Below are positions 6,586 through 15,807 of a DNA stretch of 19,431 nt, in pieces. The stretch comes from Candidatus Nanohalarchaeota archaeon (GTDB lineage Archaea; Nanohalarchaeota; Nanosalinia; Nanosalinales; JAFCCC01). The DNA lies in NCBI GenBank assembly GCA_017610385.1, contig JAFCCC010000011.1:1-19431 (forward strand), read 5' to 3'. The notes beneath the pieces are model-generated. The model was not told the DNA's origin and made no database searches. It worked only from the letters and a program-made list of their open reading frames with translations. Numbering within the stretch: position 1 is the first letter of the stretch; the number at the start of each line of letters is the position of its first letter. Both the position numbers and the translations under genes were made by a program.

Positions 6586-7119
6586 TTATTCACTGTTTGG
6601 GTTACGAGCATTTCTCCCAGACAAATTTTGCAATGCTTCTGTAACCTTTATTTCGTCTATAACTTCAAAATCTGATGATAATTCTTTGCTTAGAGGTTTC
6701 AGAGTGGCATTTAAATTGCATTTAATCGAGTTCTCTTCCAAACATATGGTTCCCCGAATGTGTGCTTGTTGAATTAATGCCGCACCTTCATCGTCCGGAG
6801 AAGCATATGAATGATCCCATCTGTTTTCTAGTTTTATATAATATCCTGGCAAGTCTATTTGTGCTGTTCTGATTTCCCTTAATTGTTCAATCACAGGCAA
6901 AAATTCATCTGCTTTAAAATAATAGCGTGCGTCTTCGTTACGTCCGTCATTATTGCCCCTAATTTCATAACCTGAAAGTACTTCAAACATTCCAAGTTCT
7001 GGCCGCAATGCGATTGATGTGTACTCAGTAGCTGGAAACCCATCAATACTGGTATTTCTTCTACCTGTGTGATTAACTTCATCTAAGAACTCTTGTATTT
7101 TATTTGATAAATCTAACAT
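6586..7119 (-). CDS. Hypothetical soluble protein, 177 residues
   Basis: An unrecognised acidic protein. An N-terminal helix (MLDLSNKIQEFLDEVNH) is followed by a mixed alpha/beta segment, and the C-terminal 50 residues look like strand and helix with a polar tail ending GRNARNPNSE. No signal peptide, membrane helix or catalytic motif is visible. A TATA-like ATATTTATAAGG on the minus strand at about 7144-7156 sits some 30 bases before the ATG, and codon composition is like that of the neighbours, so it is probably a real gene. It lies tail to tail with the methyltransferase gene, and no functional inference can be drawn from that. Confidence 0.7.
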   Translation of the reverse strand: MLDLSNKIQEFLDEVNHTGRRNTSIDGFPATEYTSIALRPELGMFEVLSGYEIRGNNDGRNEDARYYFKADEFLPVIEQLREIRTAQIDLPGYYIKLENRWDHSYASPDDEGAALIQQAHIRGTICLEENSIKCNLNATLKPLSKELSSDFEVIDEIKVTEALQNLSGRNARNPNSE

Positions 7120-10096: not shown

Positions 10097-10098
10097 GA

Positions 10099-10190
10099 TG
10101 CTCCTACCGGGACTCGAACCCGGGTCTACGGCTTTCCCTCACTTTTCAATGACGAGAGGCCGCAATGCTTAACCACTACACCATAGGAGC
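10099..10190 (-). tRNA. tRNA-Glu (anticodon CTC) with 19-nt intron
   Basis: The 92-base gene folds as a complete tRNA after removal of an intron. The acceptor stem is GCTCCTA/TAGGAGC, the discriminator is A, CCA is not encoded, the T-arm is CCGGG-TTCGAGT-CCCGG, and the anticodon stem is GCGGC/GCCGT. The anticodon loop reads CTCTCG before the intron, giving anticodon CTC (Glu, GAG codons). The intron, 10152-10134, lies between positions 37 and 38. Loop bases 32-35 pair with GAGG in the intron, with three-base bulges on both sides (CG^T and AA^A), a canonical archaeal bulge-helix-bulge. The mature length is 73. No TATA box lies about 25 bases upstream, so it may be cut from a longer transcript. 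Confidence 0.95.
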
Positions 10191-10421
10191 AGCTGAGTTG
10201 TCAGCTAGCACCAATAGCGAGTTACGAGCATAACTCACCTTATTTACTCTTTTGTAAAGGTGACTTCCGAAGGGATGTCGCCTAAAGCATTGATTAACTT
10301 GACCGGAAAATATAATTTAATGTTAAGTTAGCCCAATCCCGTTACTCAATTAACCGATTTCCCAGTTAATTTTGCTTGAGCTTTTACTAAAAAGCTCACG
10401 CGTTAACCGATTTTGCGGTTA
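10191..10421 (-). ncRNA. Hairpin-rich spacer, candidate structured RNA
   Basis: Six inverted repeats fill this stretch: AGCTGA/TCAGCT (10191-10206, touching the tRNA 5' end), GAGTTA/TAACTC (10219-10236), AGGTGAC/GTCGCCT with an inner TCC/GGA (10258-10283), AATTAACCG/CAGTTAATT (10348-10371, nine pairs with one G-U on the minus strand), TGAGCTTTT/AAAAGCTCA (10377-10398) and TAACCG/CGGTTA (10404-10421, covering the stop codon of the next gene). TTAACCGATTT occurs twice (10350, 10403). There is no coding frame. It does not show the SRP, RNase P or 5S motifs looked for. The strand is inferred from the co-oriented neighbours; the G-U evidence is mixed. Confidence 0.45.
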
Positions 10422-10748
10422 TCCTATGTAGTTATAGGAATTATCTTTCTTTTTTGTAGCTTCCTGCTTTTTCTTTTTTGGAAGTTTTATTTCTCCAAAC
10501 TGTTTTTCATAGTTTTTAATATTCTCTGTTAGCAAATTAGAAAAAACCTTGACAGTTTTGGGATCTAAAGTAATAACTTCATGATCTATTATAATGGTTT
10601 CTTGTGTATCATTTCCTACTTGATCTATTCTTGGAGATGCTTGTTTGAAGTCCAAAATAAATTTAATGGGACTATGAATAATTGCAACCGCATCTGCAAA
10701 AAATGCGCCTTTATTATGTATACTTTGAATATTTCTCTGTTTTGCCAT
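10419..10748 (-). CDS. DUF3467-like protein
   Basis: A 109-residue cytosolic protein. FFADAVAIIHSPIKFILDFKQ (16-36), followed by a strand around IIIDHEVITLDPKTVKVFSNLL (51-72) and a helix ENIKNYEKQFGEI, fits the DUF3467 pattern of a small beta domain with a conserved S-P-x-x-F-x-L-D-F core. The C-terminus is a lysine-rich tail (KLPKKKKQEATKKK). The function of the family is unknown. TTTAAATA on the minus strand at about 10782-10789 is a suitable TATA box. It heads a minus-strand run through the hairpin spacer to tRNA-Glu and the cold-shock gene, and its stop codon lies inside the hairpin at 10404-10421. Confidence 0.72.
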   Translation of the reverse strand: MAKQRNIQSIHNKGAFFADAVAIIHSPIKFILDFKQASPRIDQVGNDTQETIIIDHEVITLDPKTVKVFSNLLTENIKNYEKQFGEIKLPKKKKQEATKKKDNSYNYIG

Positions 10749-10842
10749 TTTAATAATATATTATTCTTTTAGTAAGGTATTTAAAGCTGAAAGTAATATA
10801 CACCACAAGCTTTATATACTACTACTATAAAGGTATTTTCTT

Positions 10843-11682
10843 ATGATACCCACAAAATTTGATTTTTCAGAAATTGATCCAGGACACTATGTATTAGATC
10901 CAACTACACGCAAAATTCAGCACGCAGATTTGAACTTTGCAAAAATCTTAGATGCAAAAACTGTAGAGGCTCTTTTAGGCACCATTCTTAAAGTAAATCC
11001 TGATTTTGACTGGGAAAATTTCATTTCGGGGTTAAAAATAGGGGAAATAGAACCTTATGGTATTCCGTATATTTCTATGACTGGATGTGAAACTAATGTT
11101 TTTGGTAATGTTACACTTACTAAAGATAATCAACTTATTGGTACTGCATACCCCCACAATAAAGAAGCTAAAAGGATGGCTCAGGCTTATTTAGATCCTC
11201 TTACAGGATTACATAATAGAACCTTTCTGGATGAAGAGGTTCTTCGTATTTACAATCTAAGTCAGAGAAATAAGCATCCTATGCATTTTATTATGTTTGA
11301 TTTAAATTATCTTAAGGAAATTAATGATACTTTCGGTCATGTAGAGGGAGATAACGCTCTCAAAGCGTTTGCAGACATTTTGAAGCACAGTTTCAGAGAA
11401 ACAGATTTTATAATAAGATATGGCGGAGACGAATTTTTAATTGTTTTGCCAGAAACAGATGGAACTGCAATAGATGGTGAATCTATTTTAGATATTTTGT
11501 TAAAAAGGTATAATCACGCAATTTCAGAATATAATAGAACATCTGATTTAAACTATTCTTTAGACGCAAGTTATGGAAGCAGTGTTTATGTTCCTGACAC
11601 GGAAATTACTTTTAAAGAGTTAATTGCGTTTGCAGATCAAAAGATGTATAGTATGAAAAGAGCTAAAAAAAATAGAGGATAA
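10843..11682 (+). CDS. PAS-like/GGDEF diguanylate cyclase
   Basis: A 279-residue protein predicted to make cyclic di-GMP from two GTP. The GGDEF domain begins DPLTGLHNR (118-126). The metal Asp153 is in FDLNYLKEIND, with TFGHVEGD (163-170). The signature RYGGDEF has the intact GGDEF at 194-198. An inhibitory I-site RxxD (Arg185, Asp188) sits exactly five residues before GGDEF, so product inhibition is expected. The N-terminal 110 residues look like a PAS-type sensor (IQHADLNFAKILDAKTVEALLG, then PYGIPYISMTG). There are no membrane helices, so it senses a cytosolic signal. A TATA-like CTTTATATAC at about 10810-10819 gives a leaderless start. The unknown gene at 11687 follows by four bases, a clear operon. 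No c-di-GMP receptor or phosphodiesterase is in the window. Confidence 0.93.
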   Translation: MIPTKFDFSEIDPGHYVLDPTTRKIQHADLNFAKILDAKTVEALLGTILKVNPDFDWENFISGLKIGEIEPYGIPYISMTGCETNVFGNVTLTKDNQLIGTAYPHNKEAKRMAQAYLDPLTGLHNRTFLDEEVLRIYNLSQRNKHPMHFIMFDLNYLKEINDTFGHVEGDNALKAFADILKHSFRETDFIIRYGGDEFLIVLPETDGTAIDGESILDILLKRYNHAISEYNRTSDLNYSLDASYGSSVYVPDTEITFKELIAFADQKMYSMKRAKKNRG

Positions 11683-11686
11683 TAAA

Positions 11687-12067
11687 ATGCCTGAAACTAA
11701 AGTCTATACACTTCCTGGAAAGCCCGCTGAAGTTACATCTAGATCTATTGCCTGTACTATGCCAAATGGTGCTGTTAAAAAAGTTCACATATATGGTATC
11801 GCAAAAGATTGCTATAGTGTGGATGCAGGAGATGGTCTTGATATAGAAAAGGACATCAATAAAGAAGGAAACCGCGTAATATATCGAGTAAATAACGATG
11901 AAGTATTGTGTGTTGGAAAAGATCCAAATAAAATTCTTAGGGCGGTTTATAAAAGAAAACAAAGGGTTACGATACCAGTAATTCCTCTTTCTGAAGAAGA
12001 ACAAGAGTGGTTCACAGGCATTTTAACACAACTAGAAGGAGAAAAATCAATTAGGTTTTGGGATTAG
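11687..12067 (+). CDS. Unknown protein in operon with diguanylate cyclase
   Basis: A 126-residue protein starting MPETKVYTLPGKPAEVTSRS. Predicted strands dominate (KVHIYGIAKDCYSVDAGDG, NRVIYRVNNDEVLCVG), with a C-terminal helix (SEEEQEWFTGILTQLEG). It has Cys at about 23, 42 and 75 but no CxxC motif. It shows no PilZ RxxxR or D/NxSxxG, so it is not a recognised c-di-GMP receptor. The start follows GAGGAT inside the end of the upstream gene, with four bases between stop and start, so translation is coupled. Its constant partner would be the GGDEF protein; a role in c-di-GMP signalling is only inferred from position. A hairpin lies just after its stop. Confidence 0.8.
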   Translation: MPETKVYTLPGKPAEVTSRSIACTMPNGAVKKVHIYGIAKDCYSVDAGDGLDIEKDINKEGNRVIYRVNNDEVLCVGKDPNKILRAVYKRKQRVTIPVIPLSEEEQEWFTGILTQLEGEKSIRFWD

Positions 12068-12068
12068 A

Positions 12069-12084
12069 ACTCACTTTAGTGAGT
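12069..12084 (+). terminator. Hairpin after the GGDEF operon
   Basis: ACTCAC-TTTA-GTGAGT is a perfect 6-bp stem with a 4-base loop starting two bases after the stop codon. No T-run follows immediately, so it may stabilise the mRNA end rather than terminate. The next promoter (TTTATATTTTAT, about 12099-12110) follows. Confidence 0.4.
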
Positions 12085-12130
12085 AAATGAAACCACCATT
12101 TATATTTTATCAAATTAAAAATATAGTTTT

Positions 12131-13417
12131 ATGGCCAAAAATGTTAGAAAAGTCTTGAGAGCTCAATGGACTAAAACTGGATTTATTTTAGCAAGTATTG
12201 GTGCTGCAGTTGGTTTAGGAAATATTTGGAGATTCCCTTATATGGTCGGGGAAAATGGTGGCGGAGCGTTTTTAATCCCCTATCTTATTGGAGTTATAAT
12301 TTTTGGAATTCCGTTAATTGTTATTGAATTAGAAGTTGGTCGAAAGTATAAGGGTTCTGTTATAACGACTTTAAAAAAAGTTAATCGAAAAGTCTGGTTC
12401 GTTGGAATTTTAGCGATTTTAGTTTCTTTAGGTATTTTAAGTTACTATTTGGTTATTTGCGGATGGGCTTTAGCGTATACTATTTTTTCAGTTACAAAGT
12501 TCACAAGTTTTTCTTCTTTCACAAATAGTTTACTACCTTTGTTATTTTTTATTATATCTCTTTTAATTGTTGTATTAACTGTTTCGAGAGGTATTAAACG
12601 GGGTATTGAGAAAATGGCTATGGTTTTAATGCCACTATTTATTGCTTTAGTTGGTGCATTAACTATTTACTCTTTAACTCTTCCAGGAGCCAAAGAAGCT
12701 GTTTTATTTTATTTACATCCTGATTTTTCGTATTTACTTAACATAAAGGTCTGGATTTTGGGTTTCGCGCAGGCATTTTTTTCAATCGCGGTTGGTTATG
12801 GTATTTTAATGACTTATGGGAGCTATTTAAGTAAAAAAGACAATATTATGAAAGCTTCAGTTGAAATCGCTTCCGCCGATACATTTATTGCTGTTTTAAG
12901 CGGTCTTTTAATCTTTCCAATAATCTTTACATTTGGTTTAAATCCGGCTGCTGGCTCACAATTAACATTTATTTCTTTACCCCTTGCTTTTTCGCTAATG
13001 CCTTTTGGATTTATTATAGGTGCATTTTTCTTTTTCCTTTTATTTAGTGCAGGAATAACTTCAGCTGTTTCGATGATAGAGGTTGGTGTTTCAACACTAA
13101 TCGATGAATTAAACTGGACCAGAAAAAAATCAGCGTGGACACTTTCTATTTTAATTTTTTTAGCAGGATTGCCTTCTGCTTTAAGTTATTTTGGAAAAGG
13201 CTTATTTATTAACGGCCAACCATTAATAGAATATTTAGATTCTTTATTTGGCTCGTTACTTTTGCTTTCGGCAGCGTTAACCTGCGCAACAATTATGTGG
13301 GTTTATAAACCAAAATCATTCTCAAAATGGAAAATTGCTAAACCAGTTTATTTTTTCTTGAAATATTTGGTTCCCTTAATTTTAATTGGAATTCTGATTT
13401 ATGATCTTGTAGCGTAG
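12131..13417 (+). CDS. Sodium-dependent symporter, NSS/SNF family (LeuT-like)
   Basis: A 428-residue membrane transporter that would import an amino acid or related solute with sodium. The N-terminus has the family motif: Trp13, then GAAVGLGNIWRFPYMVGENGGGAF (24-47), the unwound TM1 with the substrate and sodium site and Arg34 of the outer gate. EVGRKYKG ends TM2. About 11 membrane helices are seen, usual for prokaryotic members, and the length is slightly short because the C-terminus ends soon after the last helix. TM6-like IAVGYGILMTYGSYL is also conserved. A TATA box at about 12099-12110 precedes the ATG. The solute cannot be told from the sequence. It stands alone. Confidence 0.93.
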   Translation: MAKNVRKVLRAQWTKTGFILASIGAAVGLGNIWRFPYMVGENGGGAFLIPYLIGVIIFGIPLIVIELEVGRKYKGSVITTLKKVNRKVWFVGILAILVSLGILSYYLVICGWALAYTIFSVTKFTSFSSFTNSLLPLLFFIISLLIVVLTVSRGIKRGIEKMAMVLMPLFIALVGALTIYSLTLPGAKEAVLFYLHPDFSYLLNIKVWILGFAQAFFSIAVGYGILMTYGSYLSKKDNIMKASVEIASADTFIAVLSGLLIFPIIFTFGLNPAAGSQLTFISLPLAFSLMPFGFIIGAFFFFLLFSAGITSAVSMIEVGVSTLIDELNWTRKKSAWTLSILIFLAGLPSALSYFGKGLFINGQPLIEYLDSLFGSLLLLSAALTCATIMWVYKPKSFSKWKIAKPVYFFLKYLVPLILIGILIYDLVA

Positions 13418-13560: not shown

Positions 13561-13585
13561 CGACGGAGATAAGATTCAAAACAAT
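13561..13585 (+). repeat. Degenerate copy of the tRNA-Ser 3' end
   Basis: Aligned without gaps to 14113-14137 (the 3' end of tRNA-Ser, same orientation) it matches at 18 of 25 positions, 13 of the first 16. It lies across the end of the toxin gene, so it and the tRNA bracket the second TA module. It is too diverged to be certain. Confidence 0.35.
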
Positions 13586-13839
13586 TTGGAAAAATAAGCA
13601 TAAACGTGTTTTCTATGCCCAATAAACAAAACAATGATTTTTTCTTTCTTTTTATTTATTTCATAAATTATTCTATAATCCTCACTCCGTAAGCTCCAGA
13701 AACTGGAATATTGCAAATGTTTTCCTTTATTTGGAAACTCTTTTAATTCAGATATTTTTTCTTTTATTCTGTTTTGAATCTGAATCTCTAATTTATCAAA
13801 AGATTTCTTTGCTTTCGGATGCAAAAAGATATTATACAT
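13576..13839 (-). CDS. relE: RelE-family mRNA interferase toxin
   Basis: An 87-residue toxin with the full RelE pattern: MYNIFLHPKAKKSFDKL, a two-helix region (IQIQNRIKEKISELKEFP), then WSLRSEDYRIIYEI and IIVLFIGHRKHVY. The basic and aromatic residues in these two strands (R, DYR, GHRKHVY) correspond to those used by RelE for ribosome-dependent mRNA cleavage. The ATG follows directly after the antitoxin TAG with no gap, so translation is coupled. The length is normal. The 3' end overlaps the degenerate tRNA-Ser copy, which may mark the edge of an inserted cassette. The toxin differs clearly from the one at 2330, so the two modules are not recent duplicates. Confidence 0.92.
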   Translation of the reverse strand: MYNIFLHPKAKKSFDKLEIQIQNRIKEKISELKEFPNKGKHLQYSSFWSLRSEDYRIIYEINKKKEKIIVLFIGHRKHVYAYFSKLF

Positions 13840-14112: not shown

Positions 14113-14250
14113 CGCCGGCGATAGGATTTGAACCTATGCGTTCTTGCGAACATTGGTTTTCTCGGGGCTTGAGTTTATGAAACTCCAATGTGATTAAACT
14201 TTGTTAAGTTTATTCGAGACCAACGCGTTAGACCACTCCGCCACACCGGC
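14113..14250 (-). tRNA. tRNA-Ser (anticodon CGA) with 54-nt intron
   Basis: The 138-base gene yields an 84-base class II tRNA. The acceptor is GCCGGTG/CGCCGGC with discriminator G, the anticodon stem TTGGT/ACCAA, the loop CTCGAA with anticodon CGA (Ser, UCG codons), the long variable arm is GTTC-GCAA-GAAC, and the T-arm is ATAGG-TTCAAAT-CCTAT. CCA is not encoded. The intron 14212-14159 lies at 37/38. Loop bases CTCG pair with CGAG near its end, with bulges AA^T and AA^A. The inner helix is not continuous, so this is a relaxed bulge-helix-bulge. The intron itself holds two 6-bp hairpins (AAACTT/AAGTTT and GAGTTT/AAACTC). A TATA-like box lies 25 bases upstream. Confidence 0.95.
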
Positions 14251-14304: not shown

Positions 14305-15261
14305 ATGCCTGAAATTACAAATGAAATAATAGATAAAACAAAATGCAGATGCGGAAAAGAAGCAGTTATATTTAGACCATATGAAGGTCACGCATTATGT
14401 AAAGATCATTTTTTACATGCAATTGAAAGCAAAGTAAAGAAAACAATTAGACAATTTAAATTAGTTGAAAAAAATGATAAAATTGCTGTTGGACTTTCTG
14501 GTGGACCAGATTCCTCTGTTCTGCTTTACTTGCTAAACAAATTTTTTAAAGACAGACCAGATATAGAAATTTTCGCTATTTTCATTAATGAAGGCATTCC
14601 AAATTATCGAGAAAAGTTATTAAAAGAGGCGAAAAAACTATGCAAACGTCTGGAAGTTAAACTTTACGATTTTACTTTTAAAGAAGACTATGGCATTGGG
14701 TTAGATGAAATTGTTGAAAAGAAAAAAGGAACCGGACTAAGTCCTTGTGCGTATTGTGGAGTGATTAGGCGAGATATTTTGAATAGAAGATCGCGAGGTC
14801 TTAATGCAACAAAACTAGCAATAGGTCACAATTTAGATGATGAGGTAGAAGCGATTATGATGAATTATATTAGAGGAGATTTGCAAAGACTTGTTCGTAT
14901 GGGACCAAAGACAACACTAAGGGCATCCCCTGATTTTGTTCCAAGAATAAAGCCATTATTATATTTACCTAAAAAGGAGATTACTCTTTATGCACAATTA
15001 AGGAATATTAAAGTAATGCCAAAAGAATGTCCTTTTGGTGGTCACTCCCATAGATTTGAAGTGCGTGAATTTATTAATGATATGGAAGAAAAACATCCAA
15101 CTACGAAGTACTCTATTCTTAATACCTTTTTACGAATTCATCCAGCGATTTTAGAAACAAGAAAAGGCGAATCTAAAAATCTTAAAAAGTGTGAACGATG
15201 TGGAGAGCCAACTAATCACAAACTTTGCAAAACCTGTCAGCTTTTAGAAAGTGTACGTTAA
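14305..15261 (+). CDS. tRNA 2-thiolation enzyme, TtuA/Ncs6 family
   Basis: A 318-residue ATP-dependent tRNA sulfurtransferase. Domain order: an N-terminal zinc site (C14-x-C16, H29-x2-C32-x2-H35), the PP-loop SGGPDSS (65-71) that adenylates the target uridine, Cys148 and Cys151 (SPCAYCG) with Cys242 (KECPFGG) that bind the [4Fe-4S] or catalytic sulfur site, and a C-terminal zinc finger (C296-x2-C299, C308-x2-C311). Archaeal members act on U54 (TtuA) or on wobble U34 (NcsA/Ncs6); the sequence does not settle which. A sulfur-carrier ubiquitin-like protein would be the usual donor and is not in this window. It is divergent from tRNA-Ser and overlaps the next gene by 18 bases tail to tail. Confidence 0.93.
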   Translation: MPEITNEIIDKTKCRCGKEAVIFRPYEGHALCKDHFLHAIESKVKKTIRQFKLVEKNDKIAVGLSGGPDSSVLLYLLNKFFKDRPDIEIFAIFINEGIPNYREKLLKEAKKLCKRLEVKLYDFTFKEDYGIGLDEIVEKKKGTGLSPCAYCGVIRRDILNRRSRGLNATKLAIGHNLDDEVEAIMMNYIRGDLQRLVRMGPKTTLRASPDFVPRIKPLLYLPKKEITLYAQLRNIKVMPKECPFGGHSHRFEVREFINDMEEKHPTTKYSILNTFLRIHPAILETRKGESKNLKKCERCGEPTNHKLCKTCQLLESVR

Positions 15262-15807
15262 GTTATATGTATTATTTTCACTTGGGTGGAGATCAATTTT
15301 CATAGCTTCTTCTTCGACTGCTTCTAAATATTTTCTTAAATCCTTATAGGGGCCTTGTAAAAGTTCTTCTTTGTCAAGACTCATGAAATATTCATATAAA
15401 CGCCTTTCCTGTGGATATATTTCTTGATTTAATATGGACGCAGTTTGTCCTTCCAAAAGACATACGATTCCCATCAAATCATCTGAACTTAAACCCATTT
15501 CTTCAGCTACTTGAATTTGTTTTTTATGAAATGCTTCATGTTCTACAACTAGTTCATAATCCATTCCCGGGGGTAATGTATCAGTGTACGTTCTTCTACC
15601 TGTTTTTAAGTCTGTTGCACCCCCAACACCATATGGTAGCGTTTCTATCTCAAACGTAGTGTCCGTATTGTCTAAACCATACGCTTCATCAACTTCGTTG
15701 GTATATGTAATTGCATTAGTTAGTTCTGGGGTTATAGTAATTGCAAGTGTAGAGTCAGGACGCCCATTGGCCCCATTTAAAATAGAAGAGACAAGCTCTG
15801 CAGACAT
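15244..15807 (-). CDS. Putative zincin-like protein with HEAFH motif
   Basis: A 187-residue protein without a recognised family. VVEHEAFHKKQ at 87-97 contains HExxH (His90, Glu91, His94), and LLEGQTASI at 117-125 supplies a Glu (119) 25 residues later. This is the layout of gluzincin metallopeptidases, where the third ligand is a Glu in a following helix. The N-terminal 85 residues look like beta strands; the C-terminus is helical (ERRLYEYFMSLDKEELLQGPY). No signal peptide is seen. A minimal metallopeptidase is plausible, but the motif is short and could be fortuitous. The 3' end overlaps the thiolase gene by 18 bases on the other strand. CCATAAAAAC (about 15832) is a candidate TATA box. Confidence 0.65.
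   Translation of the reverse strand: MSAELVSSILNGANGRPDSTLAITITPELTNAITYTNEVDEAYGLDNTDTTFEIETLPYGVGGATDLKTGRRTYTDTLPPGMDYELVVEHEAFHKKQIQVAEEMGLSSDDLMGIVCLLEGQTASILNQEIYPQERRLYEYFMSLDKEELLQGPYKDLRKYLEAVEEEAMKIDLHPSENNTYNLTYTF

Follow-up and report, generated by a model that had tools for sequence, protein, structure and literature searches.

The closest described systems are the diguanylate cyclases of the WspR and PleD type, both of which were recovered as homologues among PDB sequences. The protein analyzed here shares with them a complete GGDEF domain, the metal Asp, the spacing of the subsequent Asn and Asp residues and an RxxD motif five residues before GGDEF. It differs from them in lacking a receiver domain, in having an N-terminal region without family assignment, in carrying Lys instead of Arg in the C-terminal GRN motif and in being encoded in an archaeal genome. 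In 2005, no active-looking archaeal cyclases were found (PMC1183210), and in 2018 one archaeal GGDEF protein was known (PMC5847659). By 2021, BLAST returned more than 300 archaeal GGDEF hits, many of them from Asgard and DPANN archaea, and c-di-GMP was not detected in the cultivated model archaea Haloferax volcanii and Sulfolobus acidocaldarius (PMC8646023).

Genome searches agree with this patchy picture. A GGDEF domain was detected in 3 of the 28 genomes of the phylum and in 37/394 archaeal genomes sampled around the source genome. The initial annotation had called c-di-GMP synthesis sparse in archaea, and these counts, together with the archaeal GGDEF proteins already reported, make sparse the right word and unique the wrong one. 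The second GGDEF protein of the phylum (locus L003) comprises 232 aa with a charged, possibly coiled-coil N-terminus, and the third (locus L004) is an open reading frame at a contig end with an early stop. Like the cyclase described here, the other archaeal GGDEF proteins are patchily distributed, mostly single-copy and found in small genomes; some of them differ from it in being fused to REC-GAF or HD_5 domains, none of those examined has the partner gene described below, and they fail to group with the present cyclase in the tree. More complete c-di-GMP-like architectures are represented by an archaeal GGDEF-HD_5 protein (L008, 1237-2565) and an archaeal REC-GAF-GGDEF protein (L005, 79-2055). 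The cyclase thus belongs to a known, sparse archaeal set, and its partner is an orphan neighbour.

The window, i.e. the whole stretch of 19,431 bp that was analyzed, is one entire contig out of 18 that together give a genome of 788 kb, with an estimated completeness of 93.5% and contamination of 0.45%. Two open reading frames on the plus strand, at 10843-11682 (279 aa) and 11687-12067 (126 aa), were confirmed as initially annotated. The first encodes a GGDEF-domain diguanylate cyclase, the sole GGDEF protein of its genome, which is predicted to be soluble since its highest 19-residue hydropathy mean is 0.92 and no membrane-like segment is present. The match to PF00990 has an E-value of 3.2e-39 and 134.7 bits (curated cut-off 23.8) and covers model positions 1-161 of 161, placing the catalytic domain at residues 115-278 (11185-11676); TIGR00254 matches with an E-value of 1.4e-38. 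The motif DPLTGLHNR begins at residue 118, the metal Asp is D153, the guanine-contacting N161 (+8) and D170 (+17) follow at canonical spacing, and the GGDEF signature occupies residues 194-198. D170 is the position altered in hybrid cyclases that make cAMP-GMP, and its retention favours c-di-GMP as the product. The RxxD inhibitory site that had been claimed at canonical spacing is RETD (residues 185-188, 11395-11406, plus strand), separated from GGDEF by the five residues FIIRY as in a canonical I-site. Such a site is not unusual in itself: an RxxD motif at the same spacing is present in 10 of the 28 archaeal and 75 of the 84 bacterial GGDEF matches examined.

Bacterial PAS-GGDEF cyclases offer a further comparison. 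The archaeal protein resembles them in having about 110 residues ahead of the GGDEF domain, and residues 1-114 (10843-11184, plus strand) align collinearly in BLAST to a Cupriavidus region that Pfam calls PAS. It differs from them in its lack of a Pfam PAS match or hhalign support. The PAS assignment was checked by Pfam, PDB sequences and hhalign; no Pfam match was obtained for residues 1-114 up to an E-value of 10, and alignment by hhalign to four PAS regions was off register and gave no confirmation. A low-confidence structure model shows elements in a PAS-like order, and a PAS-like sensor function of this region is a tentative guess from that order and the one collinear alignment. The single-sequence AlphaFold models of the two proteins, with mean pLDDT values of 40.3 and 47.5, were too poor for use in fold searches.

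The cyclase domain is similar to scattered bacterial ones, at identities of roughly 40% or below. When bacterial and archaeal genomes were scanned with a four-row alignment as query, the best 80 of the matching loci were all bacterial and came from several phyla, with best-segment identities of 28-41%. Scans with the cyclase sequence alone as query gave no matches in genome contigs and likewise none in IMG/VR. A tree built from 101 GGDEF domains places the source domain, with weak support (SH-aLRT 82), in a neighbourhood of mainly Bacillota rows and requires 12 changes for the archaeal rows. The gene was likely gained by horizontal transfer; transfer is not proven, because the starred branches of the tree allow one origin of the archaeal GGDEF domains. 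The explanation we consider probable is a single, probably active, bacterial-type diguanylate cyclase that was most likely acquired horizontally by an archaeal lineage.

The surroundings of the gene look archaeal. Upstream, and divergently oriented, lies a DUF3467 gene (10419-10748, minus strand), separated from the cyclase gene by a gap of 94 bp. A TATA box, TTTAAATA, at 10778-10785 on the minus strand lies about 33 nt from the DUF3467 start codon at 10748 and is the putative promoter of that gene. A second one, TTTATATA, at 10811-10818 on the plus strand is the putative promoter of the cyclase-partner pair, its centre being 28.5 nt upstream of the cyclase ATG. The motif TTTAWATA is found no more than five times in the window, below the number in shuffled sequences, and two of the five sites fall in this gap on the correct strands, some 28-33 nt from the start codons. 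A rough simulation with five randomly placed sites, for which the regions had been picked after seeing the sites, gave a chance of about 5e-6 for such an arrangement. Since the divergent TATA boxes are on the right strands, the pair probably has its own archaeal-type promoter, and the distance between box centre and ATG suggests a near-leaderless cyclase transcript. The partner starts 4 nt past the cyclase stop, and its ATG is preceded, at a distance of about 8 nt, by an SD-like AGAGGA. This layout suggests translational coupling of the two genes, which are probably co-transcribed. Directly after the partner stop, a hairpin (ACTCAC-TTTA-GTGAGT, 12069-12084, plus strand) is a weak sign of a possible operon end; the fold of 12055-12140 has a z-score of -2.0 and the stem has no T-run directly behind it. 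The next gene, encoding an SNF-type transporter, starts 63 nt past the partner stop.

The partner (11687-12067, plus strand) is very probably a real gene, as its codon usage matches that of other genes. The log-odds per codon are +0.189 in frame, against -0.182 and -0.179 when the remaining forward frames are read; the training genes range from 0.045 to 0.215, and an open reading frame antisense to the partner (11663-12004) scores -0.349. The protein is predicted to be soluble, with a highest 19-residue hydropathy mean of 0.67 and no membrane-like segment. Pfam gave no match above cut-off for it and NCBIfam, PHROGs and PADLOC gave none; PDB sequences yielded a chance-level match (E 2), and no relatives were found in plasmid, phage and IMG/VR searches. 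No homologue was found in the 27 further genomes of the phylum or beside any other archaeal or bacterial GGDEF gene examined, and the other 393 archaeal genomes gave chance-level matches (best E 0.009 per genome, with 394 genomes searched).

Since no partner homologue was found, the sampled relatives do not preserve the linkage of the gene pair that the initial annotation had proposed to look for; lack of this linkage is one of the two observations that the annotation had named as refuting its proposal. A functional link between the two genes is suggested only by their adjacency and by a transcript that they probably share, in one genome. These results agree best with an orphan or rapidly evolving partner gene whose only tie to the cyclase is a common transcript, a reading that we regard as somewhat favoured by the complete absence of relatives and by the gene order around the DUF3467 gene, which is likewise not kept in relatives. 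The strong coding signature and the tight spacing speak against it, and the absence of relatives refers to a sample that includes one genome of the source family.

Several known identities of the partner were rejected. It matches two small aIF5A-like open reading frames weakly (L040, 1441-1830; L041, 1369-1782), and with an hhalign probability of 11% an aIF5A-like protein was discarded. The PF01287 profile was detected in 1 of the 28 genomes of the phylum, below cut-off, and the aIF5A C-terminal domain may be divergent there. A PilZ receptor was also rejected, in agreement with the earlier statement that the partner lacks a PilZ motif: RxxxR occurs once (residue 63), [DN]xSxxG is absent and the PilZ profile gives no match. 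A known anti-phage cyclase-effector system was dismissed as well, as PADLOC assigned 0 families to the cyclase, the partner and the DUF3467 protein.

The rest of a c-di-GMP pathway was searched for in the same genomes. EAL and PilZ profiles gave no match in any of the 28 genomes of the phylum; HD_5 was not detected in the source genome and was above cut-off in one other genome of the 28 searched. No c-di-GMP riboswitch was found in the window, in which all RNA family matches are tRNAs. That a genome of 93.5% completeness shows neither a known receptor nor a specific phosphodiesterase, and so offers no explanation for the output, counts against an active cyclase, as does the failure to detect c-di-GMP in the two model archaea mentioned above. 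If c-di-GMP is used, some non-PilZ receptor would be needed.

This gap leaves room for the partner as a c-di-GMP receptor or cyclase regulator of a novel type that would form a minimal two-protein signalling module with the cyclase. The 4-nt gap, the shared promoter, the genome without PilZ, EAL and HD_5 matches and the low-confidence prediction that the partner is rich in beta-strands are in keeping with this proposal, which we nevertheless consider rather unlikely: no homologue accompanies any other GGDEF gene examined, the other 393 archaeal genomes hold no relative, and neither a structural nor a motif sign of nucleotide binding was found in the partner. The earlier idea of a receptor, regulator or output protein is unsupported by any genome or library searched, and an unrelated orphan on the same transcript is the more likely reading. 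Quite improbable is the stronger version, that the partner is the founding member of a c-di-GMP receptor or cyclase-regulator family not described before and that the locus is a minimal archaeal module without PilZ or a dedicated phosphodiesterase. If the partner does bind c-di-GMP, it would define a new receptor family; if it does not, what remains is an ordinary cyclase of patchy distribution. With one intact cyclase, an I-site and neither a known receptor nor a known phosphodiesterase, the genome offers a compact setting in which to ask whether archaeal GGDEF proteins make c-di-GMP and what would read it.

The residues of the cyclase bear on its predicted activity. All catalytic residues had been listed as present, and this holds for GGDEF, D153, N161 and D170; the exception lies in the C-terminal phosphate-contact motif YxxKxxGRN, which reads YSMKRAKKNR and in which, by alignment to WspR, the Lys is kept and the Arg of GRN is replaced by Lys. 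GGDEF proteins in which the signature, the metal Asp, the Asn and Asp that follow it and the I-site are intact are usually active, and all of these are intact here. A catalytically dead GGDEF protein serving as a receptor for GTP or c-di-GMP is therefore unlikely, notwithstanding the substituted Arg and a fusion of REC to an inactivated GGDEF domain reported from Micrarchaeum (PMC5847659).

For an active, horizontally acquired cyclase, the following scheme may be envisaged. The soluble, tentatively PAS-like N-terminal region would sense a cytoplasmic cue and join two GGDEF domains; each of these would bind GTP and the dimer would produce 3',5'-c-di-GMP, which at the RxxD site would restrain further synthesis. 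Because neither EAL nor HD_5 (HD-GYP) was detected, the level of c-di-GMP would be set by this feedback inhibition and by unspecific phosphodiesterases or dilution. If c-di-GMP is made, its inhibitory binding at the I-site would be the chief brake that can be named. An archaeal promoter of its own would drive the cyclase gene, probably together with the gene of the lineage-restricted 126-aa protein. If that protein is involved, it would most simply regulate or bind the cyclase, or read its product.

That the contig is a bacterial contaminant in an archaeal bin, a doubt that has been voiced where archaeal contigs carry response regulators of bacterial type (PMC5847659) and that is compatible with the patchy distribution of GGDEF domains within the phylum, is very improbable in view of the archaeal TATA boxes at the locus, the adjacent DUF3467 gene, for which relatives 32-47% identical turned up in 12 of the remaining 27 genomes of the phylum, a TYW1 equivalog that exceeds the NCBIfam cut-off 2.4 kb from the cyclase gene and a GC and GC3 content of the cyclase gene that resembles that of the neighbouring transporter gene.

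Some minor features were recorded along the way. In several genomes of the phylum, a glutaredoxin-like open reading frame lies near the DUF3467 relative. Two open reading frames on the minus strand of the window, at 6586-7119 (177 aa) and 15244-15807 (187 aa), have coding-like codon usage and no Pfam family above cut-off. A match to a ParE-type toxin family (PF05016, E 3.8e-13) lies at 13576-13839 on the minus strand. Two tRNA matches are also on this strand: one at 10097-10191 (Rfam 54 bits), which ARAGORN lists with a length of 95 bases and an anticodon of two bases (ct) that is not resolved, and one of 138 bases at 14113-14250 (Rfam 47.3 bits), which was missed by ARAGORN and possibly bears an intron.
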